A DNA stretch of 64,000 nucleotides from a virus, in the IMG/VR virus record IMGVR_UViG_3300007513_000004, positions 62,001 through 126,000 of that record, one strand, 5' to 3'. Shown here piece by piece: positions 19,765-48,497 of this stretch. Position 1 is the stretch's first letter, and every line of letters starts with the position of its first letter. Under the pieces are notes generated by a model. The model saw nothing but the letters and a program-made list of their open reading frames with translations, had not been told where the DNA came from and made no database searches. The position numbers were made by a program, and so were the translations under genes.

Positions 19765-20553
19765 TTAGTCTAATGCTATTACAGAATTTCTTGCTGCTTC
19801 CCAATCTATTTTAGACGAAGGTAAAACCCAAACCATATCCTCCATTAATACCGGACCTTCTCTAAAACTACCAACACTTATGGCGAATAATATACCTGTC
19901 AAGTTTCCATGTTTATCAAACACGCAAGATCCAGATGATCCCATCCATGCTGCTGCATGCATTATAAGGTTATCTCCTTCGGTTCCGGCCATATATCCTC
20001 GGATTGTTGTCAAGCTATGTTGAGCTGGATATCCAGAAAATACCAATTCAGATCCAACTCTATCTTCTATATCATATCTCGGAAGTTTAAGCTTTAAAGG
20101 TTTAATTTTTTTAAACTCTGGAATCAATATTATTGCAAAATCCCTCTGTGAATCCTTATGCACCAAGACCCCAAGCCTGGCATTATTCCATTGATCAGTA
20201 ACCAGATAAATACCACTATCATCAGTTAGATGTGCTGCAGTAAAAACCACATGATGCCCTTCAAACAAGAAGTATGCTCCAGACCCATGACCCCCGCTTT
20301 GTGTTGAAACTTTCACAGAAGCATTCCTGGTTGCGACTTCTATTCTTGACATAGATGCCAATTCTATTTCAAAATCTTTTTTTACATTTTCACTTAGGCT
20401 TGGGCTTGTACTTGCGCTTGTGTCTTCGCCCGTGGTCGCAACAGGCTCTTCGCTTGATCCAGCTTCTTGTGCAATACCATTTGTTTGGTTTGCAGGAATT
20501 AGCAAAAGGGCCAATATTAACGGAAAAAGAAATAGGTATGCTTTGTGCTTCAT
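19765..20553 (-). CDS. Secreted trypsin-like serine protease
   Basis: A signal peptide (residues 1 to about 29, ending NGIAQEAG) is followed by a Ser/Thr/Glu-rich linker. The protease domain starts at about 85. The triad is visible: H108 in VVFTAAHLTD, D138 in SQRDFAIILI and S207 in MGSSGSCVFD. The Leu-rich ELVFSGYPA strand also fits the S1/HtrA-like fold. A strong AGGAGG site lies 8 nt before the ATG. It would work in the periplasm or outside. It is one of two trypsin-like proteases here (the other is at 62369) and heads a block of envelope proteins. Confidence 0.85.
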   Translation of the reverse strand: MKHKAYLFLFPLILALLLIPANQTNGIAQEAGSSEEPVATTGEDTSASTSPSLSENVKKDFEIELASMSRIEVATRNASVKVSTQSGGHGSGAYFLFEGHHVVFTAAHLTDDSGIYLVTDQWNNARLGVLVHKDSQRDFAIILIPEFKKIKPLKLKLPRYDIEDRVGSELVFSGYPAQHSLTTIRGYMAGTEGDNLIMHAAAWMGSSGSCVFDKHGNLTGILFAISVGSFREGPVLMEDMVWVLPSSKIDWEAARNSVIALD

Positions 20554-20591
20554 TCGGCTTTCCTCCTGTTTATAGGAAAATTATTAGCCGA

Positions 20592-21092
20592 TTATAGATT
20601 TAGCAACAAAAAGCACACAATAGAGTTGTTTATAACGTGAGCTAATATAGATGGAAATATTGAATCTGACCGAAGTCTAAGCCATCCAATGTATATTCCT
20701 ATTGGAAAAACACCAACAATATGTTCTGGATCTACATGGGCAAATGCAAACAAAATGCTTGTTAAAAAGAAAGCATAAGTTTCATCGGAAAATTTCTTTA
20801 AAAGCTTCCAAAAAATTCCTCTGAAAAAAAGCTCTTCTAAAATTGGAGTTATAATGCATACTGATAATAATATTAAATAGAAGTCATAAGTCTGAGGGCC
20901 CATGATCACCTCATACCAAGGCTGCAGTCCGTCTGGGACTTCCTTTACAGACTCATCAATCAAGGGGCTTCTGAACCACATTGGAACCATTGCCATCAAT
21001 ATTGTTCCGAAGATAGCCCACAAATAATCGCTAACCTCACCGGCCCTTAAAGCAAATGTATCTTTTAGGTATTTTTTTACAGCCTTAATCAT
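20592..21092 (-). CDS. CPBP-family intramembrane glutamic protease
   Basis: The 166-residue membrane protein has the three CPBP (CAAX protease and bacteriocin-processing) motifs: EELFFRG with E86 and E87, the His in FAFAHVDPEH (H119), and HVINN with H152. Four to five hydrophobic helices are visible. The family cleaves near membranes and often confers bacteriocin immunity or processes membrane proteins. In a phage it could modify the host membrane, or mature the lipoproteins and mini membrane proteins encoded nearby. Confidence 0.85.
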   Translation of the reverse strand: MIKAVKKYLKDTFALRAGEVSDYLWAIFGTILMAMVPMWFRSPLIDESVKEVPDGLQPWYEVIMGPQTYDFYLILLSVCIITPILEELFFRGIFWKLLKKFSDETYAFFLTSILFAFAHVDPEHIVGVFPIGIYIGWLRLRSDSIFPSILAHVINNSIVCFLLLNL

Positions 21093-21126
21093 AGCTATAA
21101 AAATTATACCAAATATTTATATTATT

Positions 21127-21453
21127 TTAAAATACTTTTAGAATCCACAAAATAGCGCCCATCATAAATTGAGCAGCTATAAATACGCCAATAGCTTTTG
21201 TCTTAAAAGAATTAAGATCATCCACCTTTGCAATAAGCTCTTTTAATTGAGTTGGAGAAGACACGTCGTCCATCTTTTCTTTCCAGGCTCTTAATTCGTC
21301 AATGCGATCTTCTTTTACTTTTATCTCAATTATCTCTTGCTTTAATTCTTGTATTTGTGTGTTTAGATTGTCAAGGCTATCAGCAAGCGACTCAAGTTCT
21401 TTGAGCACAAGCTTAGAATATTCATTCCAACCATTTTGATGATTATCCGCCAT
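21127..21453 (-). CDS. Coiled-coil protein with C-terminal membrane anchor
   Basis: I prefer ATG 21453 (MADNHQNG) to an in-frame TTG at 21462. Residues about 12-75 form a heptad-rich coiled coil (LESLADSLDNLNTQIQELKQ), and the C-terminus is a hydrophobic helix (GVFIAAQFMMGAILWILKVF). The layout recalls tail-anchored phage membrane proteins such as spanin- or holin-associated factors, without a specific match. It overlaps the upstream coiled-coil gene by 11 bp. Confidence 0.6.
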   Translation of the reverse strand: MADNHQNGWNEYSKLVLKELESLADSLDNLNTQIQELKQEIIEIKVKEDRIDELRAWKEKMDDVSSPTQLKELIAKVDDLNSFKTKAIGVFIAAQFMMGAILWILKVF

Positions 21454-21718
21454 CTTCAACAACCTTCTTGCATCCTCTTTCCGAAACTAAGCTGGATATT
21501 CCATTCAATCTTTCAATAACTGTATTGATATTATTTTGATTTTCCCTATTTTCTACTGAGATTTCGCCAAGGGCATCTTTCGCCTCCTGAATATTTAACA
21601 ATATATCCCACAGCGTTGAGGCGTTAATTTTTAATTGTTCGTCGCGATCTTCTAAATCATCGCATAAAGCTTTAAGCTTATTTAAATTTTCTCTACAGGC
21701 TTTCATTACGTTCTCCAA
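21443..21718 (-). CDS. Coiled-coil protein (91 aa)
   Basis: The protein is helical throughout, with Leu/Ile heptads and no membrane segment. Its 3' end overlaps the tail-anchored coiled-coil gene by 11 bp, so the two may form a hetero-oligomer. No family recognised. Confidence 0.55.
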   Translation of the reverse strand: MENVMKACRENLNKLKALCDDLEDRDEQLKINASTLWDILLNIQEAKDALGEISVENRENQNNINTVIERLNGISSLVSERGCKKVVEDGG

Positions 21719-21813
21719 ATAATAATTATAAATAAATTAACTTTTAAGAACTTAACAAATACTAACACTTTATGTCTAAATAATTAGCATGTAATAAAAA
21801 TATGTGATATTTA

Positions 21814-22275
21814 TTATACAGAAATATATCCAAAGCCTTTAACTACACAAAGCCTGTCATCATATGAGCATTTTGGTATTTCTAATTCTAAATATAAATT
21901 TTCCCAAACTACATTCAGACAGGTCTCTGTTTCCCACCCCCACTCTAGGTCATCCTCCTCTGCATTTGAGCAAAGTAATTCGTTCTCAGTTGCACGAGCG
22001 GCCATGGCATCTTTGATGAGATGACCTGTGTTTAATTCTAAATTTGCTCCACATAGAAATAATGTTGTGTCATAATATGGATCATCTTGAAAATAATAAA
22101 GCTTTATATGTCCCGTTAATGGGTCTGTTGCGACATCCTCTTCGCACAAGGTAATTGTCTCGCCCCATCTAGCGCATGAAAGTTCAAAGTCACCCTCTTT
22201 TTCTTTAAAAAGTTCTGAGCAACCAGTTGTTAAAATTAATAATAAACTTAAAAAAATTCCTTTTGCATTTAACAA
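21814..22275 (-). CDS. Small Cys-rich lipoprotein (153 aa)
   Basis: A type II signal peptide with TTGC (C19) is followed by an acidic domain with eight or so cysteines in pairs (LSCARWG, TLCEED, FLCGAN, LLCSNAEE, TCLNVV, KCSYDDRLC), probably held by disulfides outside the cytoplasm. It directly abuts the TlpA-like lipoprotein gene upstream, a candidate oxidant for it. No family recognised. Confidence 0.65.
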   Translation of the reverse strand: MLNAKGIFLSLLLILTTGCSELFKEKEGDFELSCARWGETITLCEEDVATDPLTGHIKLYYFQDDPYYDTTLFLCGANLELNTGHLIKDAMAARATENELLCSNAEEDDLEWGWETETCLNVVWENLYLELEIPKCSYDDRLCVVKGFGYISV

Positions 22276-22872
22276 TTATTCTCCCATGGTGTCTTGAATC
22301 AACATATCAATATAAGAAGAGCTATATCCCCGCATACTTGTATTTAAAACCATTTCATCTGTAATGAAATAAAAGGTCGGCCAACTTGTGATGTTCCATC
22401 CGGATGTTGAACTGTAATCAATTATCGAACGATCACCCGCAAGAACCGGCTCTGAAATACCATAATCATCTGCCCAACCTTTACAGTCATCAACCGTAGG
22501 GGCAGTACCTTGGGGTGTTTCAATTAAGACCGTTAGATATGAAAGATTTTCATACGCATCTGCAACAGCTTGAACCTCAGAAGCCGCACTATTGCAAGGG
22601 CCGCACCACATTACGCTAAAATCCAAAACTATAGTATCTCCATAAAAATCATACAAAGATACGTCATTACCATTTTGATCTGTTAAAGTGAAATTGCATG
22701 GATGATCTCCCATGTTTTGCGAACAAGTCTCCCATGTCGCAAAAGAATATTCTTCACTACCATTTTCACCGTTATTTGCTGTATCATTTTCGCTTTCAAT
22801 ATTTTGCGTGCAAGCAGAACATGCCGTAAGCATTACTGAAATAAAAAATAAACATATTTTTTTACCAAACAT
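22276..22872 (-). CDS. Thioredoxin-fold (TlpA-like) lipoprotein
   Basis: A lipobox LTAC (C18) is followed by a short linker and a TlpA/peroxiredoxin-like domain. It has HPCNFTLTDQNGNDVSLYD, then VLDFSVMWCGPCNSAASEV with C90 and C93 (WCGPC, the classical thioredoxin active site), and TSWPTFYFI with the cis-Pro. It is a clear paralogue of the lipoprotein at 11724-12476 but lacks the Asp-rich linker. It would reduce or oxidise disulfides outside the cytoplasm, perhaps in the Cys-rich lipoprotein whose gene follows it immediately. An AGGGAG site precedes the ATG. Confidence 0.85.
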   Translation of the reverse strand: MFGKKICLFFISVMLTACSACTQNIESENDTANNGENGSEEYSFATWETCSQNMGDHPCNFTLTDQNGNDVSLYDFYGDTIVLDFSVMWCGPCNSAASEVQAVADAYENLSYLTVLIETPQGTAPTVDDCKGWADDYGISEPVLAGDRSIIDYSSTSGWNITSWPTFYFITDEMVLNTSMRGYSSSYIDMLIQDTMGE

Positions 22873-22897
22873 TTTAACTCCCTATGTTTGTTGCTGT

Positions 22898-24517
22898 TTA
22901 TTGAGATCCATCTTCATTTGGTTCTTCACTACAGTCTGCCCAAACTGCATATGAAATATCTATCAAACTTCCATCTGCTGGCGCTATAGTGAATGTTACA
23001 GAGTTTGAAGAGCTACTGTATGTCCAATCTGTACTGATAGAACTGTCAACCAACACTTCTATGGTATCTTCTATTGGATCGCCAGAAAGAGGAAAATCCA
23101 TTAATGCCATCGACTCTCTAGCAAGAGTGTCCATCTGGGTTCCCCAATCAGATGCGCAAATAGACATAAAGGTTCCGCCTAGATCATTTACCACATCATA
23201 GTATCCGTCTCCAAATTGTGCTCCACCATTTGTTGAGCACCCGCTCGGATAATCTCCAGCGACAGCATGAGCTGCAACCATTGAGCTTGAAGATTTAAGA
23301 CTTGCAAGATGACTGCTTACTTCGGACGGAGTTACATAGGCGCTAGACCCATCTGGCTCGTCAGACACATATATAACAGCCAGCTTTGCATCTGATCTTA
23401 AAAACGCACTTCCAATACCGGCATCTGCTCCGGGTTGGGTTGCAAGGTATGAATAATAAAGGCCCTTCTCCATCGCACTACCTGTAGTTCCAATGCTATC
23501 AACAATATCTCCAACCTCTGTAATCGGATCTGGAGAGGATGCAGTTACAATGGTTCCGTTTACAAAGTTTTCATCATCTGTTGTGATAAATGCAATTTGA
23601 TAGTCAACACCAGCAGAGGAAAATACTGCTATAAATGAGTCAAAATTATTTTTAAAATTAAGCTGATTGGACCACATAGATCCTGAATTATCTATAACAA
23701 ATAGAATATCAGTGATTGCCATACCATCTTGTTCGAAGTTATCAATAACATAACTTTCATAGTCGCCTAGCCCATCTTGGTCTGAGGTTACAATCGGATT
23801 CAAGGGATCACTAGACGTAACCTCTATATAGGCTGAGTCATCATATATGTCTAGGGGCGTATATGAAACGTCCAAACTAATTGTTTCTCCCGGAGTCATC
23901 GTCCAAGGCAGGGGTCCATATTCTATTTCATATTCTCCAAGATCAAAGTCAACAGGAAGGGTTGCAAAATATTCTACGTCACTAATCTCCAATGAAACAT
24001 TTCCAACATTTCCTATAACGACCTCAAGTGTATCATCACACCCTAAATATACAGATCCAAAGTCATAATACTCTGGACTTATCTCTATGACCGGAGCATC
24101 GCCCGAGCCTCCGATTGGAACCCATGTATCTGGTTCGTCTTCATCATTAGATAATATGCTGACAATATCACTATTTGTTTCGTATGTATCCGGATTATAT
24201 GTAACGGCAAGATCTGTTGACTCCCAAGGCTCTAACGACGAAACCGATAGAGCACTTAGAGCAAAGGTCGAATCTCCATTCACAAGAGATACTCCATCCA
24301 AAGTTAAGGTGTCACTACCAATGTTTGATATGCTTATAATGATCTGATCACCATAGCCATTGGCGTCTATTGCTCCAAACGCATGCTCCACTGGAGTTAC
24401 ATCTATCTCCGGAGCTAACACTGGCGGTTCGGTTTCTTCTGGTATCACTGATAACTTATAATCGCTACACCCAGTAAAAAATATTAAACACAAACTCGCT
24501 ATAACTAACCTAAACAT
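22898..24517 (-). CDS. Lipoprotein with ASH-like repeats and a von Willebrand A domain
   Basis: The lipobox is FTGC (C17). Residues about 36-135 and 142-240 are two beta-sandwich repeats of the ASPM-SPD2-Hydin (choice-of-anchor D) type: IDVTPVEHAFGAIDANG and ISPEYYDFGSVYLGC, each followed by SNIG or GNVG turns. The vWA domain starts at about 265 with the MIDAS sequence DNSGSM (D276, S278, S280), and a later GST..EKG loop follows. Such lipoproteins are surface or periplasmic adhesion-like proteins in Myxococcota and relatives. It neighbours a second vWA lipoprotein, 8 bp away. This is an envelope protein of probable host ancestry. Confidence 0.85.
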   Translation of the reverse strand: MFRLVIASLCLIFFTGCSDYKLSVIPEETEPPVLAPEIDVTPVEHAFGAIDANGYGDQIIISISNIGSDTLTLDGVSLVNGDSTFALSALSVSSLEPWESTDLAVTYNPDTYETNSDIVSILSNDEDEPDTWVPIGGSGDAPVIEISPEYYDFGSVYLGCDDTLEVVIGNVGNVSLEISDVEYFATLPVDFDLGEYEIEYGPLPWTMTPGETISLDVSYTPLDIYDDSAYIEVTSSDPLNPIVTSDQDGLGDYESYVIDNFEQDGMAITDILFVIDNSGSMWSNQLNFKNNFDSFIAVFSSAGVDYQIAFITTDDENFVNGTIVTASSPDPITEVGDIVDSIGTTGSAMEKGLYYSYLATQPGADAGIGSAFLRSDAKLAVIYVSDEPDGSSAYVTPSEVSSHLASLKSSSSMVAAHAVAGDYPSGCSTNGGAQFGDGYYDVVNDLGGTFMSICASDWGTQMDTLARESMALMDFPLSGDPIEDTIEVLVDSSISTDWTYSSSSNSVTFTIAPADGSLIDISYAVWADCSEEPNEDGSQ

Positions 24518-24525
24518 TTTTTCTC

Positions 24526-25398
24526 CTAAGCATACACTTGATATCCAACCTCCACCAGAGTTCCATAATCTGGCAGAAAGTCAAGCTTAACCGTGTTTGT
24601 CTCCTCAATATATTTCCAACCACTTGTAACTTGACCATCTATATAAACTATTAATGAATCTAAAATGGGCGTTTCTTCACTAAGGATTATATAATCTCTT
24701 ATCTCTGTTAAGTATGAAGATTCTGAAAGCCACATAGACCAATCTTCTTCGCAAATATCTATAGAATTTTTTCCATAAAGAGATGAAAGCTCTTCATATT
24801 TATATCCCACATCATATACGTATCCGCAGCTGCTGTCTTCAACCTGAATAATTGTAACAACATCGTGCCTAACTTCATAAAACTCCTGTTGGAGCCATTC
24901 TTGAAAAACCGCAGCTGTGATGCCGCTTTGTTCATCTTCGTCGGAAATCAAAAATAAAAGAAAATCTGCTTCAGGGCGAGAAAACTCCATACCCTCTTCT
25001 GATGTCATAAACGAATATGTTGCAGCAAAACCCTCTTCATACCCGGCGGATGAAAGCAGGTATGGGGCCATCAACATGTCTATTGTTGTTGAGGACGAAT
25101 CATACGGACCAACATAACTTAGGTTGGTCGGATCCATTGTTATATATCCAAACTGATAATCTAAAGTGAGGCCTTCAATATCAGAGCGCAAAAGCTCCAT
25201 TCCGCCAGCTACTGCATCAAAGTTGTCATTCATTGAGCCGGAGGTGTCCAGCGATATTAAAACGTCTAGCTCCTCTACTGGATCTGCCTGTATGAATGAA
25301 TCTACAATTACACGAGTTTCTCTTTGTTCTACAATTGAAATGTCACTTTGACATCCCCCGACCAGCAACGCAAATAATGCTATGTAGAAAAACTTCAC
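24526..25398 (-). CDS. Lipoprotein with von Willebrand A domain
   Basis: The lipobox is VGGC (C16). The vWA domain begins directly with LDVLISLDTSGSMND (D51, S53, S55 of the MIDAS), and an Asp-rich strand follows (LLFLISDEDEQSG). The C-terminal 80 residues form a small beta domain ending VEVGYQVYA that parallels the end of its neighbour (DISYAVWAD), so the two are related by duplication with the ASH repeats lost or gained. It is exported and lipid-anchored; its partner is unknown. Confidence 0.85.
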   Translation of the reverse strand: MKFFYIALFALLVGGCQSDISIVEQRETRVIVDSFIQADPVEELDVLISLDTSGSMNDNFDAVAGGMELLRSDIEGLTLDYQFGYITMDPTNLSYVGPYDSSSTTIDMLMAPYLLSSAGYEEGFAATYSFMTSEEGMEFSRPEADFLLFLISDEDEQSGITAAVFQEWLQQEFYEVRHDVVTIIQVEDSSCGYVYDVGYKYEELSSLYGKNSIDICEEDWSMWLSESSYLTEIRDYIILSEETPILDSLIVYIDGQVTSGWKYIEETNTVKLDFLPDYGTLVEVGYQVYA

Positions 25399-25553: not shown

Positions 25554-25934
25554 TTATTTATTCTTTTTTCGTCTTTTTCTGCGTTTTCTTCTTCTATATT
25601 GAACAACGTCTATACCCTTTGCCATTATATCATCAAAAAGATGTCCTTGAAAATCTGTATCATATACCAGAAGTCCTTGTTTGTGAATTCTGCTTATTCC
25701 CTCATCTTGTACTAGTATTGTCAATATCTCCGCAATAGATGCAGAGCTTTGAACCTCAGCAGATTCGGCAAGAACCGTGAGAATCTCTGCAACGGATGCA
25801 GAGCTTTGAACCTCAGCAGATTCGGCAAGAACCGTGAGAATCTCTGCAACGGATGCAGAGCTTTGAACCTCAGTAGCTTGAGATACTACTGTTAATACTT
25901 CTGCAATAGCAGAAGAACTGTATATCTGCCCCAA
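25554..25934 (-). CDS. Repeat protein with poly-basic tail (126 aa)
   Basis: Most of the protein is four units of a 19-residue amphipathic repeat (SSASVAEILTVLAESAEVQ), two of them identical at DNA level. The tail is RRRKRRKRRKKNK. The repeat pattern recalls fibrous or membrane-active elements; the tail could bind nucleic acid or lipid. It lies 15 bp after the LamG-like virion gene. No known family. Confidence 0.6.
   Translation of the reverse strand: MGQIYSSSAIAEVLTVVSQATEVQSSASVAEILTVLAESAEVQSSASVAEILTVLAESAEVQSSASIAEILTILVQDEGISRIHKQGLLVYDTDFQGHLFDDIMAKGIDVVQYRRRKRRKRRKKNK
25690..25880. repeat. 57-bp tandem repeat
   Basis: Two identical 57-bp units occupy 25741-25797 and 25798-25854. They are flanked by diverged copies on both sides (from about 25690 and from 25855). 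They encode the 19-aa repeat of the protein above. Identity of the central pair implies recent expansion. Confidence 0.85.
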
Positions 25935-25949
25935 CTTGACCTCCCATTA

Positions 25950-27500
25950 TCAGCCACCACCACCGGCGGTATCAACCTTGAGGCCTATCCTCATAGAGTC
26001 AATTACAAAAGACCTGTCTGCCGGGTTGCCATTGGGAATAAGGGGACCGGGATTGCCGTCGCCATTGCCATCTGGATTTTGATCAAAAACAGCAGATACT
26101 ATTTGAAAATCGGTACCAGCCAGACCCTTAGACATCGATGCGTCACCGGTCGCGGCAGCCCCATTGGTCGGCGGAGCCTTAAATGTTAGTTGTACCGTTT
26201 CATTACTTGCTTCCGTAAACTTACATACATTTATAACACGTATAGCTCTAATCTCACCAATCTTACTATCCCAAGCAGCATCAACCATATCTCTATCCCA
26301 CGTGTCTACAGTGTATTTAGAATTTTCTCCAATGTCATTAGTTTTCAAGTAAGTATCTCCCGCATAAGAAATTGGATTTTCTGGAAGATTAGGATCGGTA
26401 GGAGTAAAGTTGTCATCTCCCTGGATAGCCAGATGGGACGTGGCATTGCCGAGGGCGGCGCTTCCATCTGATGCTTTCCAATTTCCCCACTCATTAGTAT
26501 CGTCATTCCCACCTTCGCCTCCAGATTCATTCACCGGATACACACCCTGTATTACTTGATTCAAAGTTGTGGTCTGAGCTATGGTTCCCTGCAGATCCGA
26601 AAAGTCAGGGCTCTGACCTGGTTGCCAATGATCATAAACTACAACATTATCGAAGAGGGTGCGAATAGCGCTACCTTCATTTGCATCAGTATTTGATGTC
26701 AAAAAAGAATAATACTCAATAGCCTGAGCGGCCGGGGCTTCCTCCGTGGACGGAAACTGAATTTCTGCGTTTATAGTAACAACGTCCACCCCGTCTACAT
26801 TGATTACCAACAACCCATCGCTATCCTGAGGATTCTCTCCGGCTGCGCCGCCAACGACTACGGTAATTGCAATTTGATGCCATGAAGGGGTTCCTGCGGC
26901 ACTGACATTGAAACAAGACTGCGTTGTTTGGCCGAGGATGCTTCCATTGTCATGAGTTTTTACATAGAGTCCGGCCTTGCTGGGGTTATTGCCTGCGTCG
27001 TTTTTAAAGCTTAATCTAAAAAGCGGCGAGCCGTCCTCTATCTTATTTCCACCAGCATCTGAGAACAATCTTCCTAAATCACCGTCCCAAAATCGGCACA
27101 ATTGATCCTTGCCCTCCTCAAAGGCCTCTGGCGCTCTGTAGAAAAATCGAAAGCCCATTCTTTTGAGGCCCTTGCCGCCGGTGCCATGTATATTGCTTGC
27201 CCCACCATCAAGAAGATTCGGGGGTGATAAAAATTCTATGTGTGAATCCTGAGGCGCAGTCAAGGCCAAGGCGCACTTTCCACCACCTGGCGGAATAGCT
27301 CCGTTAATCATGCCTGCTTCAGTATCATTTGTACTGATATTGCTTAACAGGTTAACGTTTTGAGACCCTGGATCTTGAGTGGTTGTATATGCAACATACG
27401 CTCTATCATTACCGCCACCATATGCAGCACCGTTAATAGTGTGTATTCCGTCACCAAGAGACGCGTTTACTTCATATCCATCCATATGACTTATGCCCAT
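25950..27500 (-). CDS. Virion protein with LamG/ConA-like domain (516 aa)
   Basis: Residues about 90-290 read as a concanavalin-like jelly roll: alternating strands RMGFRFFYRAP, LFRLSFKNDAG, AGLYVKTHDNGSIL, WHQIAITVVVGG, LLVINVDGVDVVTIN and RTLFDNVVVYDHW. The second half is also beta-rich. There is no signal peptide, and the N-terminus is Gly-rich. This is typical of phage surface or tail-associated carbohydrate-binding structural proteins. A good AAGGAG site lies before the ATG. Its neighbours are a fibre-like repeat protein and a tail lysozyme. Confidence 0.7.
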   Translation of the reverse strand: MGISHMDGYEVNASLGDGIHTINGAAYGGGNDRAYVAYTTTQDPGSQNVNLLSNISTNDTEAGMINGAIPPGGGKCALALTAPQDSHIEFLSPPNLLDGGASNIHGTGGKGLKRMGFRFFYRAPEAFEEGKDQLCRFWDGDLGRLFSDAGGNKIEDGSPLFRLSFKNDAGNNPSKAGLYVKTHDNGSILGQTTQSCFNVSAAGTPSWHQIAITVVVGGAAGENPQDSDGLLVINVDGVDVVTINAEIQFPSTEEAPAAQAIEYYSFLTSNTDANEGSAIRTLFDNVVVYDHWQPGQSPDFSDLQGTIAQTTTLNQVIQGVYPVNESGGEGGNDDTNEWGNWKASDGSAALGNATSHLAIQGDDNFTPTDPNLPENPISYAGDTYLKTNDIGENSKYTVDTWDRDMVDAAWDSKIGEIRAIRVINVCKFTEASNETVQLTFKAPPTNGAAATGDASMSKGLAGTDFQIVSAVFDQNPDGNGDGNPGPLIPNGNPADRSFVIDSMRIGLKVDTAGGGG

Positions 27501-27589: not shown

Positions 27590-30154
27590 CTATTGATGCA
27601 ACTCATACAGCCCAACGTCAATTATCACCGGCTCTCGCGAACCCGGCCTTTGCATTAAATTATTTGCATGCACATCCGACCAGTTAATTCCATTATCTTT
27701 TAATGTTTGAAGAAGAGCAAATAAACTTTCTGTTTCTGGCATATACTTTTCTGAAAACAAGAATCCTTCAGGAGATTCTGTGTAAATAGTTTGCTCTCTC
27801 TCCTTCTCTAATGCCTCTAATCTTCTGCGATTTCTACCTGCGCTATACCCCTGAGGATTATCTTCTAACATACCCTGTAATGCTCCAATAGATTGGTCTA
27901 CGCCTTCTGTTGAATAATATTTTGGAATAGGTCTTTCCGAAGCTTGGAAATATGAATTTATATTATTTTGAATTTCATCTGCAATTTGAGAAATGAAATC
28001 ATTTTCACCAAGCATAAATAAATTAGAAATATTTAGTAATTTATTATTTACAAAAGCAGATACCCCATCTGTTTGCACATCCCTAACAAGGATTGCCCTC
28101 TCCAGCTCTCTCTTTATACCCTCCTGCTCTGTAACAAAAGATCTATATATATCTTCTTCTTCCTCATTCTTTGATGTATTCCTTAAGGTTTCGGTGGCTG
28201 AATTGAAAGAGCGAGAGATTGCATCATGAATAAACTCTTCATTTTTAAACAAATCTCCTGATTCCCTATTTCTCTTTGTCCGCAAGACAGAATCCATATG
28301 ACCTCCGAAAGGTTCCAGGACTTCCATTATAATTATAGTGTCAAACATATCTTCAACTATTTTATAAATTTTTGGCAAATGCTTTCTTTGTTCTTCCGGA
28401 ACTTCAATTTCTGAAATCTTCTTCCAAATATCCGGCTCCATATTGCTGCTTGTAACCACCTTCGCTATTGCTCTATTGCCGTCATGCAGAACCTCATAGA
28501 TATTACCTTCTGCTGTTCTGGCCCCTTCGCCTCGTCGCTCTGCTTCTGTCCCTGCTATATACTTTATTATTTCCACTCCATTTCTTTTTAACACCTCTTC
28601 GCTTGGAAATCTGCGTCTCTCTACCCTGGTTTGCACCGGGATTGTAGCGTCTGGATCAACGGGGGTGGTTATCCCTGGCCCTATAGACATGGTTGAACCT
28701 GCCTGATCATCCGAATTAGTTGTCGCTAATTTTAAAATCTCTTCTAAAAAAGAAGCTTCTTGTGTAAAACCATTTTTCTTTAAATATTCATTTAAATTAT
28801 AAAATTTATTATCGATACTTGCAAAAGCGCTTGTCTGCTGAGGCATATCCACTCCCGGCGTCTGACCAGCATAAGGTATTCCGTCTTGCAAAAACCTATC
28901 AGCCTCTCTGTTTCTTCTCTTTGTAAGGCCGCGCATTTTTCTTCTTTTACCATCTGATCCGGTTGAAGTTTGAGGGCCATTTCGAATAGCCTTTTCTGCC
29001 CCCATATAATCACCCTCATTAAGGGGTCCTAATATATTATATTTTTTTGGACCACCCCTTCCGGTATTAAATGCAAAAGATGACATTGCATCAAACATAC
29101 TTTGGGTTATCGGAACTTTTATCTGACCTTTCCATGGAGACTCATGTTTTTTTACATCCTCTTTATAAAGACTCCAGGCCTGATCTCTTGTCATCTCCCC
29201 TCGCCCTTTTAGATACTTTGAAAACCTAGGCTTCTCTCTGGTTCTTACCAAATGTCCAATTCCAATTGTTGCTCGACCTTTAGCTTCCCCATATGAAGAA
29301 ATCGGCTCTCCCGTTGCATCATCATAAACATTTCCACGATAACTTTCTTTATCTGCCATCTCTTTCATTAAAGCCTCTGATGTTTCCATGCTACTTGCAG
29401 ACCCTATATTTGTAGCCCTTGATGCCTGAGCGGTGCCCGCCGGGGCAGGCAGAGGAGGCATGGCATCAGAGGGCAGAGGAGGCATGGCATCAGAGGGCAG
29501 AGGAGGCATAGCTCCAGAGCCTTGGCCCGGCGGGGTCGCTGCCCCTTGGCCTGCAGGCACCGCAGCAATGCTTTCCAGCATTATTAAAGTATTTTTATCA
29601 ACTATGCCAGTTGGCTCTATTTGATTGTTTGTCTGAAACTGAATAACAGCATTTTTTGTTTCTTCTCCATAATTTCCATTTACGTATCTTCCTGCTGAAA
29701 TATACCCATGTTTTACCAAAAGACTTTGAATCTTTGAGACAGGAGTGTTTCCAGCAACATCTTTGCTTCCAACCTGAAGTGTGCTAGAACCAGATCTGAT
29801 GGACGCCAGTTGATCCACCGGCGGAGGAAGATCTGGAGAAGAGACAGCTTGCGGTTCTGCCGACAAAGGCTCTGAGCGAGCCACCTCTTCGGCTCTCTGC
29901 AAGGCCTCCGCCTCTCCGCCTGCAGCAGCCGCAGCTTCTTCTGCAGCTTTTTGATCTTGCAAAGTCTTTTTAACCCACTCTAAATCGAACCCAAAAAACT
30001 CTGCATATGCCTCAGGGTCCGTTTCTGGATCAGGAATATCCGTAGATCCGCCACCGGTGCCAGAAATATTCCTAATAGCCCGCATCATCTCAGCTTCTTT
30101 TTCAAAACCCTTTTCTGTAAGAAACTTTTTTAATGTAAAAAGCCGATCATGCAC
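27590..30154 (-). CDS. Tagged peptidoglycan-binding, GH24 lysozyme and kinase-like fusion (854 aa)
   Basis: Domains in order: helical tag at residues 4-29; Ala/Glu linker; PG_binding_1 domain at about 130-197 (IQSLLVKHGYISAG and a TKNAVIQFQ helix); repeat linker of SDAMPPLP units; T4-type lysozyme (GH24) at about 262-425 with E270, D279 (nine apart, as in T4 lysozyme) and TIGIGH at 296-301; a second tag at 451-477; then a kinase-like domain. In the last, K565 (AIAKVV), a hinge-like IIMEVLEP, WSDVHANNLM (D827, N831/N832) and IIDVGL (D846) match the APH/ABC1-type kinase core. It probably cuts the host wall on entry or exit; the kinase-like half may modify protein or small molecules. I know no described fusion of this form. 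Confidence 0.85.
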   Translation of the reverse strand: MHDRLFTLKKFLTEKGFEKEAEMMRAIRNISGTGGGSTDIPDPETDPEAYAEFFGFDLEWVKKTLQDQKAAEEAAAAAGGEAEALQRAEEVARSEPLSAEPQAVSSPDLPPPVDQLASIRSGSSTLQVGSKDVAGNTPVSKIQSLLVKHGYISAGRYVNGNYGEETKNAVIQFQTNNQIEPTGIVDKNTLIMLESIAAVPAGQGAATPPGQGSGAMPPLPSDAMPPLPSDAMPPLPAPAGTAQASRATNIGSASSMETSEALMKEMADKESYRGNVYDDATGEPISSYGEAKGRATIGIGHLVRTREKPRFSKYLKGRGEMTRDQAWSLYKEDVKKHESPWKGQIKVPITQSMFDAMSSFAFNTGRGGPKKYNILGPLNEGDYMGAEKAIRNGPQTSTGSDGKRRKMRGLTKRRNREADRFLQDGIPYAGQTPGVDMPQQTSAFASIDNKFYNLNEYLKKNGFTQEASFLEEILKLATTNSDDQAGSTMSIGPGITTPVDPDATIPVQTRVERRRFPSEEVLKRNGVEIIKYIAGTEAERRGEGARTAEGNIYEVLHDGNRAIAKVVTSSNMEPDIWKKISEIEVPEEQRKHLPKIYKIVEDMFDTIIIMEVLEPFGGHMDSVLRTKRNRESGDLFKNEEFIHDAISRSFNSATETLRNTSKNEEEEDIYRSFVTEQEGIKRELERAILVRDVQTDGVSAFVNNKLLNISNLFMLGENDFISQIADEIQNNINSYFQASERPIPKYYSTEGVDQSIGALQGMLEDNPQGYSAGRNRRRLEALEKEREQTIYTESPEGFLFSEKYMPETESLFALLQTLKDNGINWSDVHANNLMQRPGSREPVIIDVGLYELHQ
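29454..29509. repeat. 24-bp tandem repeat encoding SDAMPPLP
   Basis: Two identical 24-bp units (29454-29477 and 29478-29501) and part of a third lie within the lysozyme fusion gene. They encode the Pro-rich linker between peptidoglycan-binding and lysozyme domains. Confidence 0.75.
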
Positions 30155-30170: not shown

Positions 30171-32627
30171 TTATTGATTTGAATCTTCTGGGTCGGGGTC
30201 AACGTCTGCATATGCCCCCTCCTCCTTGGATAAGAATTTAGTCATGTTTTGCTTTTCATCATATTCTGATGTCACAACGACCGTAGTAAGAGCAGTATCG
30301 GGCAAGGCAGCATCTGCGTCTTCCGCAGATGCGTAGACTACCAACCTGCAAGCCAAAAGCCTACCTGTCTCATCATATATGGAATCTGTGATTCTATGGT
30401 TATACTGAGCAAGTCCTGCTATAATCCTGTTGAACATACCGAATGTATGCTTGGTTTCGTGATCCGCAACTTCCTCTTCCCAAACTTCATGAGCAATCTC
30501 ATGCATTGTGCTATCAGTCTCTGCCTTGACGATTAAGACATCACTTGCTTCAAGGCCGGGAGAGGGAACAGAGCTCTCATCTTCATTTACTAATTTTATT
30601 TCAAAATATTGAGTGCCAGAGCCTTCTTCTTCGCCAACAGATACAATTCTTCCCAAATAACTCTGTGTATCTTGATCAAAAGACATTGTTCCAAAATCAA
30701 ACCCCTTTATAACAACAATTGACCTATCTACATAAGATATCATCTCAGCCTCTGTCAAAGGATGCGCCAATAGCCGGTTTGAATAAAATTTCTGACCATT
30801 GGGATCTGCATTATTGCATGTATGCACAGGGGTTCCCACCGGAGTCCCGCCTCCTGTCCAATGATTCATGTTTTCACTTAGATACCGAATAATCATGGCT
30901 TCAGCCATTGTGTTGGTATTTGGCGGAGCGGCTGTGCCGGTGTGTGGGTTGTAAATTGTATTAAATATATCGGCATTCCAAACTGCATCACTAATCTCTT
31001 GAGCGGCAGTGGCCGATATTTCTTCATATGTTACAGAATCAACCTGTATTGCATCTTCATCAATTGCATTGTTTGCAATTATCTGCGTTCTAATATTTGG
31101 CCTCCGAACAACAGAGTTACCATCTGGTAGGTAATCTTGGGTCCAAGTTACAAGAATATCATCAGGACTTGTTGGGCTTCCGCCTGTAACGCTGGTGCCC
31201 GCGCCCTCCCAGGTCTTGACCGAAATACGGGGAAATCTATTGGTTGTTCCGACCGAAACAGCTGCATCACTCACTCCCGCCCAGCCCTTGACTGTTATAG
31301 CGGGAAGCAATACGGTATTAACACTGTGGTCATATTCAGAACCGCCGGGAGCAGAAAAGACATATGCATCGGCACTCGTTGGGGTGGTAGCATTATTGGT
31401 TGTATTCCAAGCCTTAACGCTAATCTCAGGAACAGCAGATGTGTTGCCCACTGTGAACGAGGCATCACTATCTCCTCCCCAACCGCCAACACTAATCATA
31501 GGAAGAGAGTCGCCGCTTACTGCGTCCCCTCCAGCGCTGGTCTGAACATATGCATCTGCATGTGAAGCGTTTCCATCGCTGGTATTCCACGCTCTAACGC
31601 TAATTTCTGGAGCTTTGGAGGTATCGCCTATCGAAAATGCCGCATCGCCATCGCCTCCCCAGCCCTCAACCGTTACTGCCGGAAGACCAACACTGAGATT
31701 GGCTCCAGAGGTTCTAACCGTTACTGATCCTGTGTTATCATTCCAAGCTTCAACATTAATACTTGGCAGGCCTGAGCTTGAGCCAAGGGCTGTCTCGGCA
31801 TCAGTTGCTGAACTTCCATCTCTCCAGCCTCCAACACTAATCACGGGAAAGCTTGTGCTTGAACCAACAGAAAGAGATGGATTAAGTCCGCCCCAGTCTA
31901 CGACATTTGCACTAATCGTCCCCCCGCTTGCCGCATCAACATTCGGAAAGTGTGTTGTACTATCTGCCGAAAGTATAACACCAGTTGTATTTCCCGGATC
32001 AGCGTATGGTCCAAGATTATTCCAATCTACTACGTTTGCATCAACAGTTATTGAAGATACAACATCCACATCGGGAATTCCACCTGATCCAGAAACTCCG
32101 GATCCATCCCACTCTACAACATTAACATTTGGAACGCCATTAGTAGTTGTCGCAGTAACGTTATTGCCCTCCCATTGTACAACATTTGCATCTATAGCTC
32201 CAGAGAACGATGTAGATGAGACCATGACATCGCTTACAACAACATGGATGTATTCCAAGAAACCAGAGGTTGACTCTTCCATTCTTATTACATATCCCTC
32301 ATCTGCAGAATCGGGAGATGTGGTTGCAACACTGTTTGACCAAAATATACCCACCCCTGAGACCGAGGCGTTAAAATCATAAACGCCAGGTAACCCATCA
32401 GCCTGAAGCTCTCCCATGTCGCCCTCACAATCAGAGGGGCTAGAGACGTAATCCGCATTCGTAACCCACACATTAGAAGGGGCACCACCAGAGGTGAACT
32501 GCCAATACTCATCATTGTTAATACTATAAATACGAATCTTTGGAGCCAAACCAGACGTTGGAGTTCCACCGATAATCACTTCCATAGTAAAGTGTAGTGA
32601 TTCAGAATCTCTTATTTCATGTCTCAT
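30171..32627 (-). CDS. Fibre-like virion protein with VNVV-W repeats (818 aa)
   Basis: Residues about 140-480 contain at least a dozen imperfect repeats ending in INVEAW, ISVGGW or ISVKAW, joined by Ser/Thr/Asp-rich loops (units like PNVNVVEWDGSGVSG). Such repeats occur in tail-fibre and spike proteins of marine tailed phages and probably form a beta-stranded trimeric shaft. The C-terminal 250 residues have a different, mixed fold with VHTCNNADPNGQKFY. The first 140 residues look like an attachment domain. There is no signal peptide. It lies 16 bp before the lysozyme-kinase gene. Confidence 0.7.
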   Translation of the reverse strand: MRHEIRDSESLHFTMEVIIGGTPTSGLAPKIRIYSINNDEYWQFTSGGAPSNVWVTNADYVSSPSDCEGDMGELQADGLPGVYDFNASVSGVGIFWSNSVATTSPDSADEGYVIRMEESTSGFLEYIHVVVSDVMVSSTSFSGAIDANVVQWEGNNVTATTTNGVPNVNVVEWDGSGVSGSGGIPDVDVVSSITVDANVVDWNNLGPYADPGNTTGVILSADSTTHFPNVDAASGGTISANVVDWGGLNPSLSVGSSTSFPVISVGGWRDGSSATDAETALGSSSGLPSINVEAWNDNTGSVTVRTSGANLSVGLPAVTVEGWGGDGDAAFSIGDTSKAPEISVRAWNTSDGNASHADAYVQTSAGGDAVSGDSLPMISVGGWGGDSDASFTVGNTSAVPEISVKAWNTTNNATTPTSADAYVFSAPGGSEYDHSVNTVLLPAITVKGWAGVSDAAVSVGTTNRFPRISVKTWEGAGTSVTGGSPTSPDDILVTWTQDYLPDGNSVVRRPNIRTQIIANNAIDEDAIQVDSVTYEEISATAAQEISDAVWNADIFNTIYNPHTGTAAPPNTNTMAEAMIIRYLSENMNHWTGGGTPVGTPVHTCNNADPNGQKFYSNRLLAHPLTEAEMISYVDRSIVVIKGFDFGTMSFDQDTQSYLGRIVSVGEEEGSGTQYFEIKLVNEDESSVPSPGLEASDVLIVKAETDSTMHEIAHEVWEEEVADHETKHTFGMFNRIIAGLAQYNHRITDSIYDETGRLLACRLVVYASAEDADAALPDTALTTVVVTSEYDEKQNMTKFLSKEEGAYADVDPDPEDSNQ

Positions 32628-34677: not shown

Positions 34678-36015
34678 CTAACTAATCTGATACCCAGCAT
34701 TCTTCAGCGCCGAGTTATGGCACATAATTCCAGGCGTTGATCCAGACAGCTCTGTCCAATCCTCTATTTCTCCACTTTCATCTGCTCCAAAAATATATGT
34801 TTCCGGACCAGACATCGGCACCTCATTGGCTGACACTACAACGTGTGTGTGACCATCCAATGGTTCGCTTAACTCATAAAGGGCAGCATCTCCTCTGAAA
34901 TTATCCAAGGTTTTTATACGCTTTGCCGTTTTGCTTTTTGACAATTGCTCTGCATCCAAAAGATTCTGCCCCCGACCATGATAGGGTTTTTCGGTCATAG
35001 TGTTTAAAGAAACACCCCTATCTGCCCAAGGCTTATCCCAAGGCTTATCGTCAGAACTTATTTGGCTTACCATTTGACTTACCATTTCATCCATTCTTCC
35101 CTCTGGATGCGATCCGGGACGAGCTTGAACATCAGACGTTGGGTCAAGATCATCTTTTAGCTGCTGTACTTCATCGCCTATTCTTTCGTCAACCTCTGCA
35201 GCAATCTCCTCAGGATCTTTGGAGCTTCCGGAGTCAGCAGCGCCTTCTCCGAGGCCATACCAATCCCAATTAGCCTCACCCTCTTCGTCGTCATCCCACG
35301 AGGGTGCATCTACTTCTTTTGTTCTTTTCGCAACCAATGTAGCCTCAAGAACTGCCGAGCCTTCCCAGACACAGCCGGAGGCCACATCCCAACCATAATA
35401 CCACATACTACTGTGCCTAAAGCTATACTGATAAGGGCAGATCTCAATGCCAGAATATTTCATAGCAACTTTTGCCCAATCAATAGTCTTCCCCCAAGAA
35501 CTATCTGGAACCGAATACTCTCTCTCAAAGGCGACAAACTCTTGCTCATTCGTTATCATAAGCATTCTGCTTTCATCAACCTTGAAAGAATAAACATAAC
35601 CACCAATCCATTGTGGCATCTCATAAGTCAGCCAGCTAATCCACTCATTTCCGCATGCATACCAAATGCCCGAAGGTTTTGGTCCCTTTTGTTGCGCAGG
35701 AAAGTTTGGAATTCTAGTCAACTCTTCTGCCGCCATAGTTATTCTGTTATTTTGATTATCCCCTATTAACTCTGTAAGCTGTGTATAATTTGCCTCTTTA
35801 TCCTTTTTTTCAGGAATATTTACCTTCAGATCTTGAGTCTCTTCTTTCAGCTTCGCTAGTTCTTCCGGAATCCTTCTTGCCATTCCTAATTTATCAAAGT
35901 GGTATGCCAACTTATCGCAGACATCAGCCTCTCTAATCATTCCTTTTTGATCAAACTTATTAGACAGATCTATCAACTCATTGATATTTAATTTTGAAAT
36001 GGCAGCTTTATCCAT
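34678..36015 (-). CDS. Tagged protein with WYY/WDVASGC domain (445 aa)
   Basis: A tag copy occupies residues 11-40 (INELIDLSNKFDQKGMIREA), and a partial second copy follows (YHFDKLGMARRI). Residues about 112-235 form a conserved-looking Trp-rich domain: GIWYACGNEWISWLTYEMPQ, DWAKVAMKYSGIEICPYQYS and WYYGWDVASGCVWEG. I have a weak impression of an ADP-ribosyltransferase- or RES-like phage family for this type of motif, but cannot confirm it. The C-terminal 150 residues hold an acidic linker and a small mixed domain. AAGGAG precedes the ATG. Confidence 0.65.
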   Translation of the reverse strand: MDKAAISKLNINELIDLSNKFDQKGMIREADVCDKLAYHFDKLGMARRIPEELAKLKEETQDLKVNIPEKKDKEANYTQLTELIGDNQNNRITMAAEELTRIPNFPAQQKGPKPSGIWYACGNEWISWLTYEMPQWIGGYVYSFKVDESRMLMITNEQEFVAFEREYSVPDSSWGKTIDWAKVAMKYSGIEICPYQYSFRHSSMWYYGWDVASGCVWEGSAVLEATLVAKRTKEVDAPSWDDDEEGEANWDWYGLGEGAADSGSSKDPEEIAAEVDERIGDEVQQLKDDLDPTSDVQARPGSHPEGRMDEMVSQMVSQISSDDKPWDKPWADRGVSLNTMTEKPYHGRGQNLLDAEQLSKSKTAKRIKTLDNFRGDAALYELSEPLDGHTHVVVSANEVPMSGPETYIFGADESGEIEDWTELSGSTPGIMCHNSALKNAGYQIS

Positions 36016-41952: not shown

Positions 41953-42558
41953 TTATAACCATATGACATCTTTAAAATTCCACATAGGTTTAAAAAAATT
42001 TTCAATTTTCTTTTTATCATCATCTGTAATAACCCCATCGGGTGCTAGAACTATCTTATCATTACCCTTTGGAGCAGGCTTGCCCTCCGGTCGAGAAGGT
42101 GACTTCGTTTTTTCTCGCCACTCTTCATCACTATCATTAACAGGAACATACCCAACGGCAATAAGGTTATGGCCCTGCGGAATATGCTTCACATCTTCTT
42201 CTTCGTCTTCTGGATCCACAGTAGTTTTGGCGCTTGGTACGATTATAACATCCCAGCCCATATCGTCAGCAGGATTATTTACCTCTGTAAACTCTCCATA
42301 GTGAAAAGGCATCTTCTTGCGAAGTTTTTGTCCAAACCTTTTTTTGCTGCCCTTTGGATTGTCTAGAAATATAAATTTACCCGGATTTTCATCCAGGTAT
42401 TCCAAAACACTATCAATGCCCTCTACGTCTATCTCCTCGGTAGGATAATCTATTCCGGGCATAGAGCATATTTTTATAATGCGTTTTATTTTAAGTGCAT
42501 CATTAGAAAGGCCAAGTTTCTTAAGCTGTTTAACAAGAAGCTTTAACCTTGAAATCAC
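41953..42558 (-). CDS. Tagged basic/acidic ORFan (201 aa)
   Basis: Residues 3-30 are a tag copy (SRLKLLVKQLKKLGLSNDAL followed by KIKRIIKI). The following 150 residues contain a PGKFIFLDNPKGSKKRFGQK stretch and a strand VIIVPSAKTT before the acidic turn DPEDEEEDV. No known domain is recognised. Its start overlaps the end of the M15 peptidase gene by 4 bp. Confidence 0.7.
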   Translation of the reverse strand: MISRLKLLVKQLKKLGLSNDALKIKRIIKICSMPGIDYPTEEIDVEGIDSVLEYLDENPGKFIFLDNPKGSKKRFGQKLRKKMPFHYGEFTEVNNPADDMGWDVIIVPSAKTTVDPEDEEEDVKHIPQGHNLIAVGYVPVNDSDEEWREKTKSPSRPEGKPAPKGNDKIVLAPDGVITDDDKKKIENFFKPMWNFKDVIWL

Positions 42559-44012
42559 TTTCTAAATCTCCGCATCTTGCCGCTTGGAATGCCGCCGGGC
42601 GTTAATGATTTTACTGTAACATGAAAATGATCTGTCTCTCTAAGAATATCAACTGTAGCCATCTTTTGAGCTTCAAACAAAACCTCTTTGATATTACTCC
42701 CAAGCCTAATATCAAGAGACTTGCCTCCCCTATGACCAGTTTTGGGCCAAGATTCTGCAATTACTTTTTCTGCAGCTTTTCTTTTACCCTCTGCCTCTGC
42801 AGACCCCGAAAAAATAGATACAATCTCACTAATTCTTGGAAACTTTCTATATAGACTTGAAAGATACTTGTTAGCCCTGTTGCTGCCTACCCCTCTTCTT
42901 TTGTAATTGTTATACATAATCCTTGCTTGATCATAAGGGCCTCTATAAGCGCTTGTTATTTTAACCTTTGCATTCATTTGACTGGCAGCATTATTAATTA
43001 TCTTCAGAAGCTCATGCAACATAGGAGAGCCTCCATCAACATCTACCCGGCTGCTTGTAAACTGTACATGAGTTAAGCTATCAGATAATTCGGATGAACA
43101 ATTTGGAGAACAACTTCTTTGCCACTCTCGACCCCCAAGCCTCTCCTGCCTCTGCATCCTTCGATGTTCTCGCCTAGATTCTACAGGAAATGGTTTGGGA
43201 TTTGAAATAAGAGTAGATAGCGTTGCCTTATCAACAATGCCGGTTGTTGGCAATTTATTTTCCTGCTGAAACCTAACAACCGCATCTGCCGTTATATCTC
43301 CAAACTTTCCATCAACACCGTAGCTTCCCAGGTTATATCCTAACCCTTCGAGTCTTTGTTGAATATAAGCTACTTGATCACGATTTTCATGATCCTTTGT
43401 TATATTAAGGTTTGGATCGATATCCATGGTTTCTTTTACTACAGTAGGATCTTTTCTCTCAAAAACCTCTGAAGACTTTAAATATTCACTGTTGTATTTT
43501 GATGATTTTTCAACTAAATCTTGAATAAAAAATTTAAAATACGCTGGATCTTCCTCTTTGTTGTTAATAACTGTTTCTATTTCTAATTTTATTGCATTTG
43601 AACTAAAGTTTTTATCTTGCAATTTATCACTAGATAATATTCTTAAAATTTCATAAGAAGTTTCTGGTCCTACTTTGGATCGAAACTCTCTAATAGATAC
43701 TGTCAAATCAGATGCTGCAACATTAAGATTTGCAACTTTATAAAGACCGCCAATACTATCGGCTCTATCCTTCGAGCCCAAAGAACCTATATTTGTGTCG
43801 GCATTCATACTATAGCCCATTTCTATAAGTTTTTTTTCAACGATAGGCGAAGGCGTGGCAGCTAGAACCCACCTTCTTCTTTCTTCATCCGAACGTAATT
43901 CGTCCAAAGAGGTCAAACCCATGTCTGCCATCATAGTTTCCAAATACTTTCTTCTTTCAGATTTTCTTGGATTTCCGAAGTCTTTTATTATTTTGAATTT
44001 TCTTTTGGGCAT
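42555..44012 (-). CDS. PG-binding and M15-type (VanY-like) peptidase (485 aa)
   Basis: PG_binding_1 domain at about 213-270 (YIQQRLEGLGYNLGSYGVDG and DAVVRFQQENKLPTTGIVD). M15-like peptidase at about 305-470: ITSAYRG, zinc ligands in GHRGGKSLD (H427, D434) and ETDHFHV (E459, H462, H464). It would cleave the D-Ala or cross-link peptide of peptidoglycan, as an endolysin or virion-borne wall hydrolase. The first 26 codons overlap the upstream gene by 56 bp; starting at M27 (43934, preceded by a GGAA site) would avoid this. It is the second wall hydrolase in the window, of a different class from the GH24 fusion. Confidence 0.8.
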   Translation of the reverse strand: MPKRKFKIIKDFGNPRKSERRKYLETMMADMGLTSLDELRSDEERRRWVLAATPSPIVEKKLIEMGYSMNADTNIGSLGSKDRADSIGGLYKVANLNVAASDLTVSIREFRSKVGPETSYEILRILSSDKLQDKNFSSNAIKLEIETVINNKEEDPAYFKFFIQDLVEKSSKYNSEYLKSSEVFERKDPTVVKETMDIDPNLNITKDHENRDQVAYIQQRLEGLGYNLGSYGVDGKFGDITADAVVRFQQENKLPTTGIVDKATLSTLISNPKPFPVESRREHRRMQRQERLGGREWQRSCSPNCSSELSDSLTHVQFTSSRVDVDGGSPMLHELLKIINNAASQMNAKVKITSAYRGPYDQARIMYNNYKRRGVGSNRANKYLSSLYRKFPRISEIVSIFSGSAEAEGKRKAAEKVIAESWPKTGHRGGKSLDIRLGSNIKEVLFEAQKMATVDILRETDHFHVTVKSLTPGGIPSGKMRRFRK

Positions 44013-47966: not shown

Positions 47967-48497
47967 TCAATCCTCATATATAGATCCTTCGAAATCGTAT
48001 CTGGCCTCTTTCCCATTAAAGAACCCTATTCTCGCATCCAACTCTACTCCGTCAACTTCGTTGATTCCCACGCCAAGTAATTCATTCGAATAAACAGGGC
48101 TGGTTTCCTCTGTGGTTGACACTGTTATATGAGGAATGCTGTTTGAAGAGGCTACCCCAGCAACCATAACGGCCTGGCCTCGATCATCTTCATTGTATCC
48201 AATAATTTTTAACTTAACAATCTTTCCATCTATTGGCAAAGCTAGAACCTCTTCTTCCGATGGTTTAAACTTTATAGTCATATGGTGCATAAAATGCTTA
48301 GAATGAAGCTCCTTCTGAACTACGGTTCCCCACCAATTTTCCAACATTTCTTTACCAGATGGTGTTAAAAATGCCGCAGTATATAAGGCTTTCTTTTTCT
48401 TTTTTGCATATTTTATAATTTCTTCTACAGACTTTAAATATGCAGAGCCACCTTCTTTTTCTATTTTATCTTTTAATTCCTCTAATGCTTTAATCAT
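47967..48497 (-). CDS. 2H phosphoesterase-superfamily protein
   Basis: The 176-residue protein has the two HxT motifs that define the 2H fold: HHMTIKF (H72, T74) and PHITVST (H123, T125), with beta strands before each. 2H enzymes open 2',3'-cyclic phosphates or ligate RNA ends; this type resembles the cyclic phosphodiesterase domain of fungal tRNA ligase more than LigT. Its start overlaps the CCA/HAD fusion gene by 4 bp (48494-48497), suggesting that the two proteins act together on RNA ends. Confidence 0.8.
   Translation of the reverse strand: MIKALEELKDKIEKEGGSAYLKSVEEIIKYAKKKKKALYTAAFLTPSGKEMLENWWGTVVQKELHSKHFMHHMTIKFKPSEEEVLALPIDGKIVKLKIIGYNEDDRGQAVMVAGVASSNSIPHITVSTTEETSPVYSNELLGVGINEVDGVELDARIGFFNGKEARYDFEGSIYED

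Follow-up and report, generated by a model that had tools for sequence, protein, structure and literature searches.

Known systems closest to the fusion

Polyvalent proteins frequently carry lysozyme domains, and their kinases lack the C-terminal subdomain while keeping the active site (Iyer et al. 2017, PMC5512222). Peptidoglycan-targeting domains in general are common in this class, for which co-injection has been predicted. A second point of comparison is provided by the internal proteins of phage T4, diverse defence proteins whose sole common part is the capsid-targeting sequence, or CTS (PMC3012670).

The DNA analysed here, referred to as the window, is a stretch of 64,000 nucleotides (G000:C1:62001-126000) from the 223-kb virus record G000. 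ORF reading of the window places an 854-aa protein with a GTG start, P0001, on the minus strand at 27590-30154. Its domain order is tag 1, PG_binding_1, GH24 lysozyme, tag 2 and a predicted kinase domain. We read P0001 as a bifunctional, tag-addressed effector that would be delivered by the virion, and give this reading a probability of about 0.5.

As in polyvalent proteins, disparate enzymatic domains (lysozyme and kinase) share one chain, and as in Kinase-PolyVal (PF18762) the kinase is without a C-terminal subdomain but retains its active-site residues. The earlier note had called the joining of a wall hydrolase to a phosphotransferase-like half unexpected; the fusion itself stands, but it is less surprising than was claimed, since polyvalent proteins with lysozyme domains and C-lobe-less kinases have been described (PMC5512222). 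There are differences in detail. PF18762 gave no match in P0001 or in 18 records, and matched one distant member of the kinase family at 2.1e-4. Unlike Kinase-PolyVal, P0001 has no conserved Gln in its last N-lobe strand, where E611 stands instead (the IIIME611VL hinge), and its W825-S-D827 has no insert between the catalytic His and Asp. A long helical insert and address tags further distinguish it from the polyvalent kinase proteins. Pfam found none of the hub domains (MPTase, ArdC-N, MuF and others) and no portal domain in the P0001 chain; ArdC-N sits on a neighbouring tagged protein. A polyvalent-like working appears to be the best analogy for P0001, without membership of Kinase-PolyVal.

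Gene neighbourhood and domain organisation

The gene and its immediate surroundings comprise the following features:

24526-25398, minus strand: vWA-like lipoprotein, with a homologue directly after the stand-alone kinase gene in a 316-kb relative
25950-27500, minus strand: downstream 516-aa gene, on the same strand as P0001
27590-30154, minus strand: P0001 fusion gene, GTG start, stop at 27590-27592, GAGG-like Shine-Dalgarno upstream of the GTG
30171-32627, minus strand: upstream 818-aa gene with NVVEW/ITVGGWGG-type repeats, fibre-like by eye

The end of the fibre-like gene and the start of P0001 are separated by 17 nt on the same strand. Neither the 818-aa protein nor the 516-aa protein gave a family match. 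Further downstream, 25554-25934 (minus strand) is occupied by DNA repeats that are nearly identical, recur every 57 bases and code for ASVAEILTVLAESAEVQSS units. A run of secreted-protein- or lipoprotein-like genes extends over 19765-25398 (minus strand): two of vWA type (one with a Hydin-like part), one thioredoxin-like and one trypsin-like, in an order that is kept in the 316-kb relative.

Within P0001, the features are:

30065-30154, minus strand: tag 1, aa 1-30, MHDRLFTLKKFLTEKGFEKEAEMMRAIRNI, core from residue 4, the usual place in tagged proteins
29579-29743, minus strand: PG_binding_1 domain, aa 138-192 (Pfam, 5.2e-13)
29441-29512, minus strand: Pro-rich linker, aa 215-238, three AMPPLPSD-type repeats
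28892-29368, minus strand: GH24 phage lysozyme, aa 263-421, with E270, D279 and TIGIGH at 296-301
28730-28813, minus strand: tag 2, aa 448-475, at the lysozyme/kinase junction (tag matrix, type-2 HMM)
27593-28588, minus strand: predicted C-lobe-less kinase domain, aa 523-854 (G542/G544 loop, K565, E611, D827, N832, D846)
27755-28279, minus strand: long helical insert, aa ~626-800, from the hinge to the catalytic loop (AlphaFold2 secondary structure)

The residues named earlier (E270, D279, TIGIGH at 296, K565, D827, N831/N832 and D846) all lie at the positions given for them.

The lysozyme half

Phage_lysozyme matches aa 286-417 at 1.9e-19 (Pfam; 70.7 bits versus a cut-off of 22.3), while GH24 endolysins in the PDB match the lysozyme half at 3.4e-13 and T4 gp5 does so more weakly (0.0015). 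The catalytic Glu and Asp, E270 and D279, are nine apart and precede TIGxGH; their counterparts in T4 lysozyme are E11 and D20. Both the Pfam match and these positions uphold the earlier description of a GH24 lysozyme with intact active-site residues. P0001 has the GH24 fold and E-9-D-TIGxGH pattern of GH24 endolysins and T4 gp5, and the PGB plus lysozyme architecture of GH24 phage endolysins. Unlike these, it bears a kinase and two tags.

A tail or baseplate lysin, whose lysozyme would drill through the wall while the kinase served as a structural or regulatory appendage or acted at the cell surface, has to be weighed here. Its gene lies in a tail-fibre gene cluster, directly behind the repetitive fibre-like gene, and the PDB matches include the tail lysozyme T4 gp5. 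We nevertheless consider it unlikely: no spike, OB fold or baseplate domain was found in P0001, the 316-kb relative encodes the kinase separately, and arrays of kinases of its family are found apart from hydrolases. ATP is lacking outside the cell, which also counts against such a role.

The kinase half

Direct searches with the second half returned little. Pfam assigned no family to the C-terminal 370 residues, a PDB search with the kinase half alone gave no significant match, and three phmmer matches, all of them kinases, were weak (E 0.2-1.9). A search of related records identified a 402-aa stand-alone homologue, P0004, in the 316-kb phage G002; an IMG/VR scan with the kinase pair returned the two copies already known and nothing else. 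The wider family was found by a degenerate DNA scan for W-x-D-x-H-x-x-N...D-x-G, which retrieved proteins whose glycine loops are of textbook form, such as LGSGAFGSVFSAIYKGQQVAAKI, from a 335-kb phage and from a tandem array on a 186-kb record. A scan with the W-S-D variant of the motif recovered P0001 alone, and no relatives turned up when GTDB was scanned with the kinase core.

A profile of ten phage kinases, from which P0001 and the G002 homologue were left out, matched the C-terminal half of P0001 at E=1.2e-16, the best among 2000 shuffles reaching 0.5. Because some profile members had been chosen by their catalytic-loop motif, the N-lobe was scored separately, and it alone matched at 2.5e-5 (best shuffle 0.19). 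The profile itself matches PDB protein kinases (SNF1, 7.7e-7); in Pfam, Pkinase was matched by five of its ten members (best 2.3e-8), APH by five of ten and Kinase-PolyVal once. G542, K565, E611, L613, P615, D827, N832, D846 and G848 are invariant in a 12-sequence alignment. The protein kinase-like residue set is complete, comprising the VAIK Lys (K565), the catalytic Asp (D827), the Mg-binding Asn (N832) and the DFG-type Asp (D846).

AlphaFold2, run on the 12-sequence alignment, produced a model with a pLDDT of 71 overall, in which the kinase N-lobe is confident (~90). The top 50 Foldseek matches in the PDB were all kinases or pseudokinases (50 of 50), and most of the named BFVD matches were viral kinases. 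An earlier model based on a two-sequence alignment (pLDDT 45.6, with meaningless Foldseek matches) was set aside, and a joint MAFFT alignment that took in the P0005, L014 and L053 kinases proved poor and went unused. The C-terminal half is therefore predicted, from resemblance in sequence and model that exceeds chance, to be a protein kinase-like domain. The structure prediction and fold search that the earlier note had proposed recovered a kinase N-lobe, and its kinase-like domain with K565, D827 and D846 is corroborated by the independent profile, the predicted fold and the 12-sequence invariance. It had also named N831/832, of which N832 holds and N831, which is not invariant and lies outside the motif, does not.

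The chain stops eight residues past D846, the Asp of DVG, with no C-lobe beyond the DFG position; the usual C-lobe tail is absent or replaced. The helical insert of ~175 residues is missing from the short paralogues in the 12-sequence alignment. The short phage kinases (the tandem array in L062; P0006-P0009) belong to the same family by profile and share with P0001 the GxG loop, the VAIK-type Lys, the E-x-L-x-P hinge, the early chain end, W-x-D-x-H-x-x-N-I-M and D-[VFL]-G. They are stand-alone proteins, whereas P0001 is fused to a lysozyme. The array in L062 (2333-9490; 186-kb record IMGVR_UViG_3300017963_007659) consists of approximately eight C-lobe-less kinases in tandem, and one of these chains runs on into seemingly ART-like repeats.

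The fusion and its relatives

The possibility that two ORFs had been joined by an assembly error, which the earlier note had raised, was checked. A second contig, IMGVR_UViG_3300007512_002757, carries the ORF and the DNA around it in identical form across 14,562 bp, and a chance assembly join is therefore unlikely, save if both contigs share reads. In-frame continuity and the modular relatives likewise argue against an artefact.

In G002, the P0001 kinase homologue is a gene of its own. Upstream of it, beyond one small opposite-strand ORF, lies the gene for a wall peptidase of 411 aa that looks M15-like on inspection and has a weak Pfam VanY match (0.013). The kinase gene is followed by genes for two vWA lipoproteins, one thioredoxin lipoprotein and one trypsin-like protein. 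The window and G002 have in common the order topoisomerase I, peptide deformylase, fibre, hydrolase and kinase, followed in both by the lipoprotein and trypsin-like genes just named. With a separate kinase gene in the same order, one gene away from a wall peptidase, a genuine gene fusion is the simplest account of P0001. G002 has another C-truncated kinase-like gene, which directly precedes a tagged SLT transglycosylase. Within the loci examined, the lysozyme-kinase fusion occurs in P0001 alone, and no account of such a fusion was found in the literature searched.

That wall hydrolase and kinase-like genes adjoin twice in G002 also suits an endolysin of late lysis, which would stay unpackaged and whose kinase half would modify wall precursors or a host regulator in the manner of APH or zeta-toxin. 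APH is matched by half of the kinase family members, and endolysins commonly pair PGB with lysozyme. However, the same phage has another candidate for this task:

42555-44012, minus strand: separate, untagged PG-binding protein, M15-like C-terminus by eye, alternative endolysin candidate

Furthermore, tags are also found on proteins unrelated to lysis and no kinase of the family is confined to lysis genes. A role in late lysis hence seems rather doubtful.

A tag family in related large phages

The earlier note had described two tags in P0001. In a position matrix built without P0001, its two best windows are indeed tags 1 and 2, at 17.0 and 13.0 bits; the third-best window scores -2.5 bits, and the best of 500 shuffles 12.3 bits. 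Neither was detected by a highly specific HMM built on the common tag type, and we therefore regard both as divergent members of the family. They are of a second, more divergent flavour that emerged from the position matrix; a type-2 HMM places both above 3000 shuffles (tag 2, E=0.017).

The tag is ~28 aa long, with the consensus ELIKLANxLDSKGLxKEADYLDxIIKK; A/S and an acidic linker frequently come next. A four-tag profile found it at 22 places in the G000 genome (E<5e-4), and a search of IMG/VR with ten aligned canonical tags yielded 36 loci. Tags occurred in all 26 related records tested, with up to 19 per record. A scan of GTDB genomes gave no match, tblastn with the consensus found nothing in the phages collection, and the tag sequences were found neither among the families nor in the literature searched. 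Two tagged ORFs lie close to P0001:

33596-33817, plus strand: 73-aa ORF with the canonical tag MNNELIKLANHLDKKGFHKEADFLDSIIKTA (tag match)
34678-36015, minus strand: tagged ArdC-N protein, 445 aa (Pfam ArdcN, 4.5e-5; tag, 44.6 bits; PHROG_8582 domain)

The latter is of polyvalent type and lies in the same cluster as P0001. Elsewhere in the window, at 48494-50848 (minus strand), a tRNA nucleotidyltransferase carries a tag at the very end of its chain (758-783) and perhaps a second, internal one at 419.

The tagged proteins are otherwise unrelated and include stand-alone kinases and wall hydrolases. Among them are LysM/Hydrolase_2 and PGB/SGNH enzymes, one ArdC-N protein and one CCA-adding enzyme; inspection adds an M15-like hydrolase as well as metalloproteases and kinases. 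The pairing of tag and kinase is also seen in G000 (P0005), in G004 (L014 7713-8711) and in the 335-kb phage (P0007, 18.1 bits), while tag and wall hydrolase recur together in M15-like, SLT, LysM/Hydrolase_2 and PGB/SGNH proteins. Related large phages hence also encode each enzymatic domain type of P0001 on its own, frequently with a tag.

The positions of 102 tags were N-terminal in 78 cases, internal in 16 and C-terminal in eight. As with the T4 CTS of the internal proteins and Alt, then, a short conserved sequence mostly stands at the N-terminus of otherwise unrelated proteins. Unlike the CTS, which is 10-20 aa long and is a cleaved N-terminal propeptide, the phage tag has ~28 aa and can also be internal or C-terminal. 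This freedom of position, extending to the CCA-adding enzyme, could equally suit a tag that docks proteins to an intracellular compartment or complex (a replication factory or phage nucleus) instead of the virion, with P0001 working in infected cells. We think this very improbable, as wall-degrading enzymes would be odd cargo and tagged genes cluster beside TerL and portal.

Proposed function of P0001

The reading that we favour is delivery by the virion. P0001 consists of a tag, peptidoglycan-binding and GH24 lysozyme unit fused to a unit of tag and C-lobe-less protein kinase, and both enzymatic domains have intact catalytic residues. The tags may be docking signals that load diverse cargo into the virion in the style of the T4 CTS. 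At infection, P0001 would exit with or ahead of the DNA, its lysozyme half would open the peptidoglycan locally, and its kinase half would reach the periplasm or cytoplasm for early phosphorylation of host targets; the halves might be parted by proteolysis before the kinase acts.

Consistent with delivery, tagged genes sit immediately upstream of the terminase and portal genes in G003, several further relatives have them close to TerL, and a tandem array of tagged genes occupies 53.2-61.7 kb of this phage; the separate untagged endolysin candidate also agrees with it. Against it stand the internal and C-terminal tags, including that on the CCA-adding enzyme, the divergence of P0001's own tags, the lack of a tag on P0004, and the absent or replaced C-lobe of the kinase. 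Terminase (phrog_675) and portal (phrog_16240), matched in seven of seven relatives searched alongside, had no match in the 223-kb G000, which also speaks against delivery; this record may be incomplete. The earlier note had offered either an injected multifunctional effector or a regulated tail lysin, and the former fits the evidence better, given the stand-alone kinases, the tandem arrays (one with an ART-like fusion) and the genome-wide occurrence of tags on diverse proteins.

More tentatively, and at somewhat less than even odds, the ~28-aa tag of this lineage of large environmental phages (ELIKLANxLDSKGLxKEADYLDxIIKKA and divergent variants), probably a helical hairpin, might be a general virion-loading address code for dozens of different proteins, and P0001 a polyprotein with two cargoes and two addresses. 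P0001 would then combine a wall-breaching enzyme and a host-modifying kinase in one deliverable protein, and the tag family would let the virion-travelling proteins of uncultured large phages be read from sequence. If the tag is a packaging signal, many injected effectors are predicted, among them kinases, metalloproteases, ArdC-type proteins and wall hydrolases.

Other tagged loci

Just beyond the window, L007 7050-15744 (G000 C1 53.0-61.7 kb) holds at least ten same-strand tandem genes that have only an N-terminal tag in common, including one for a 344-aa protein that is M15 peptidase-like by eye; the array resembles an internal-protein or effector island. A conserved family (STRYSPDRVGVQA...YDYNEGF), present in L013 3957-5081, L025 4173-5273, L010, L019, L021 and L022, carries one to three tags behind an N-terminal domain of ~150 aa and is encoded upstream of terminase and portal; conceivably, it organises tagged cargo as a protein of the head. 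Finally, an uncharacterised domain, YxxFWEPRSxGxxxKPYAFRYxxxxDxFEV, is found in L053 6015-7250, L053 14555-15793 and L013 17233-18333, where wall hydrolases and the product of a portal-proximal gene have it behind their tag.
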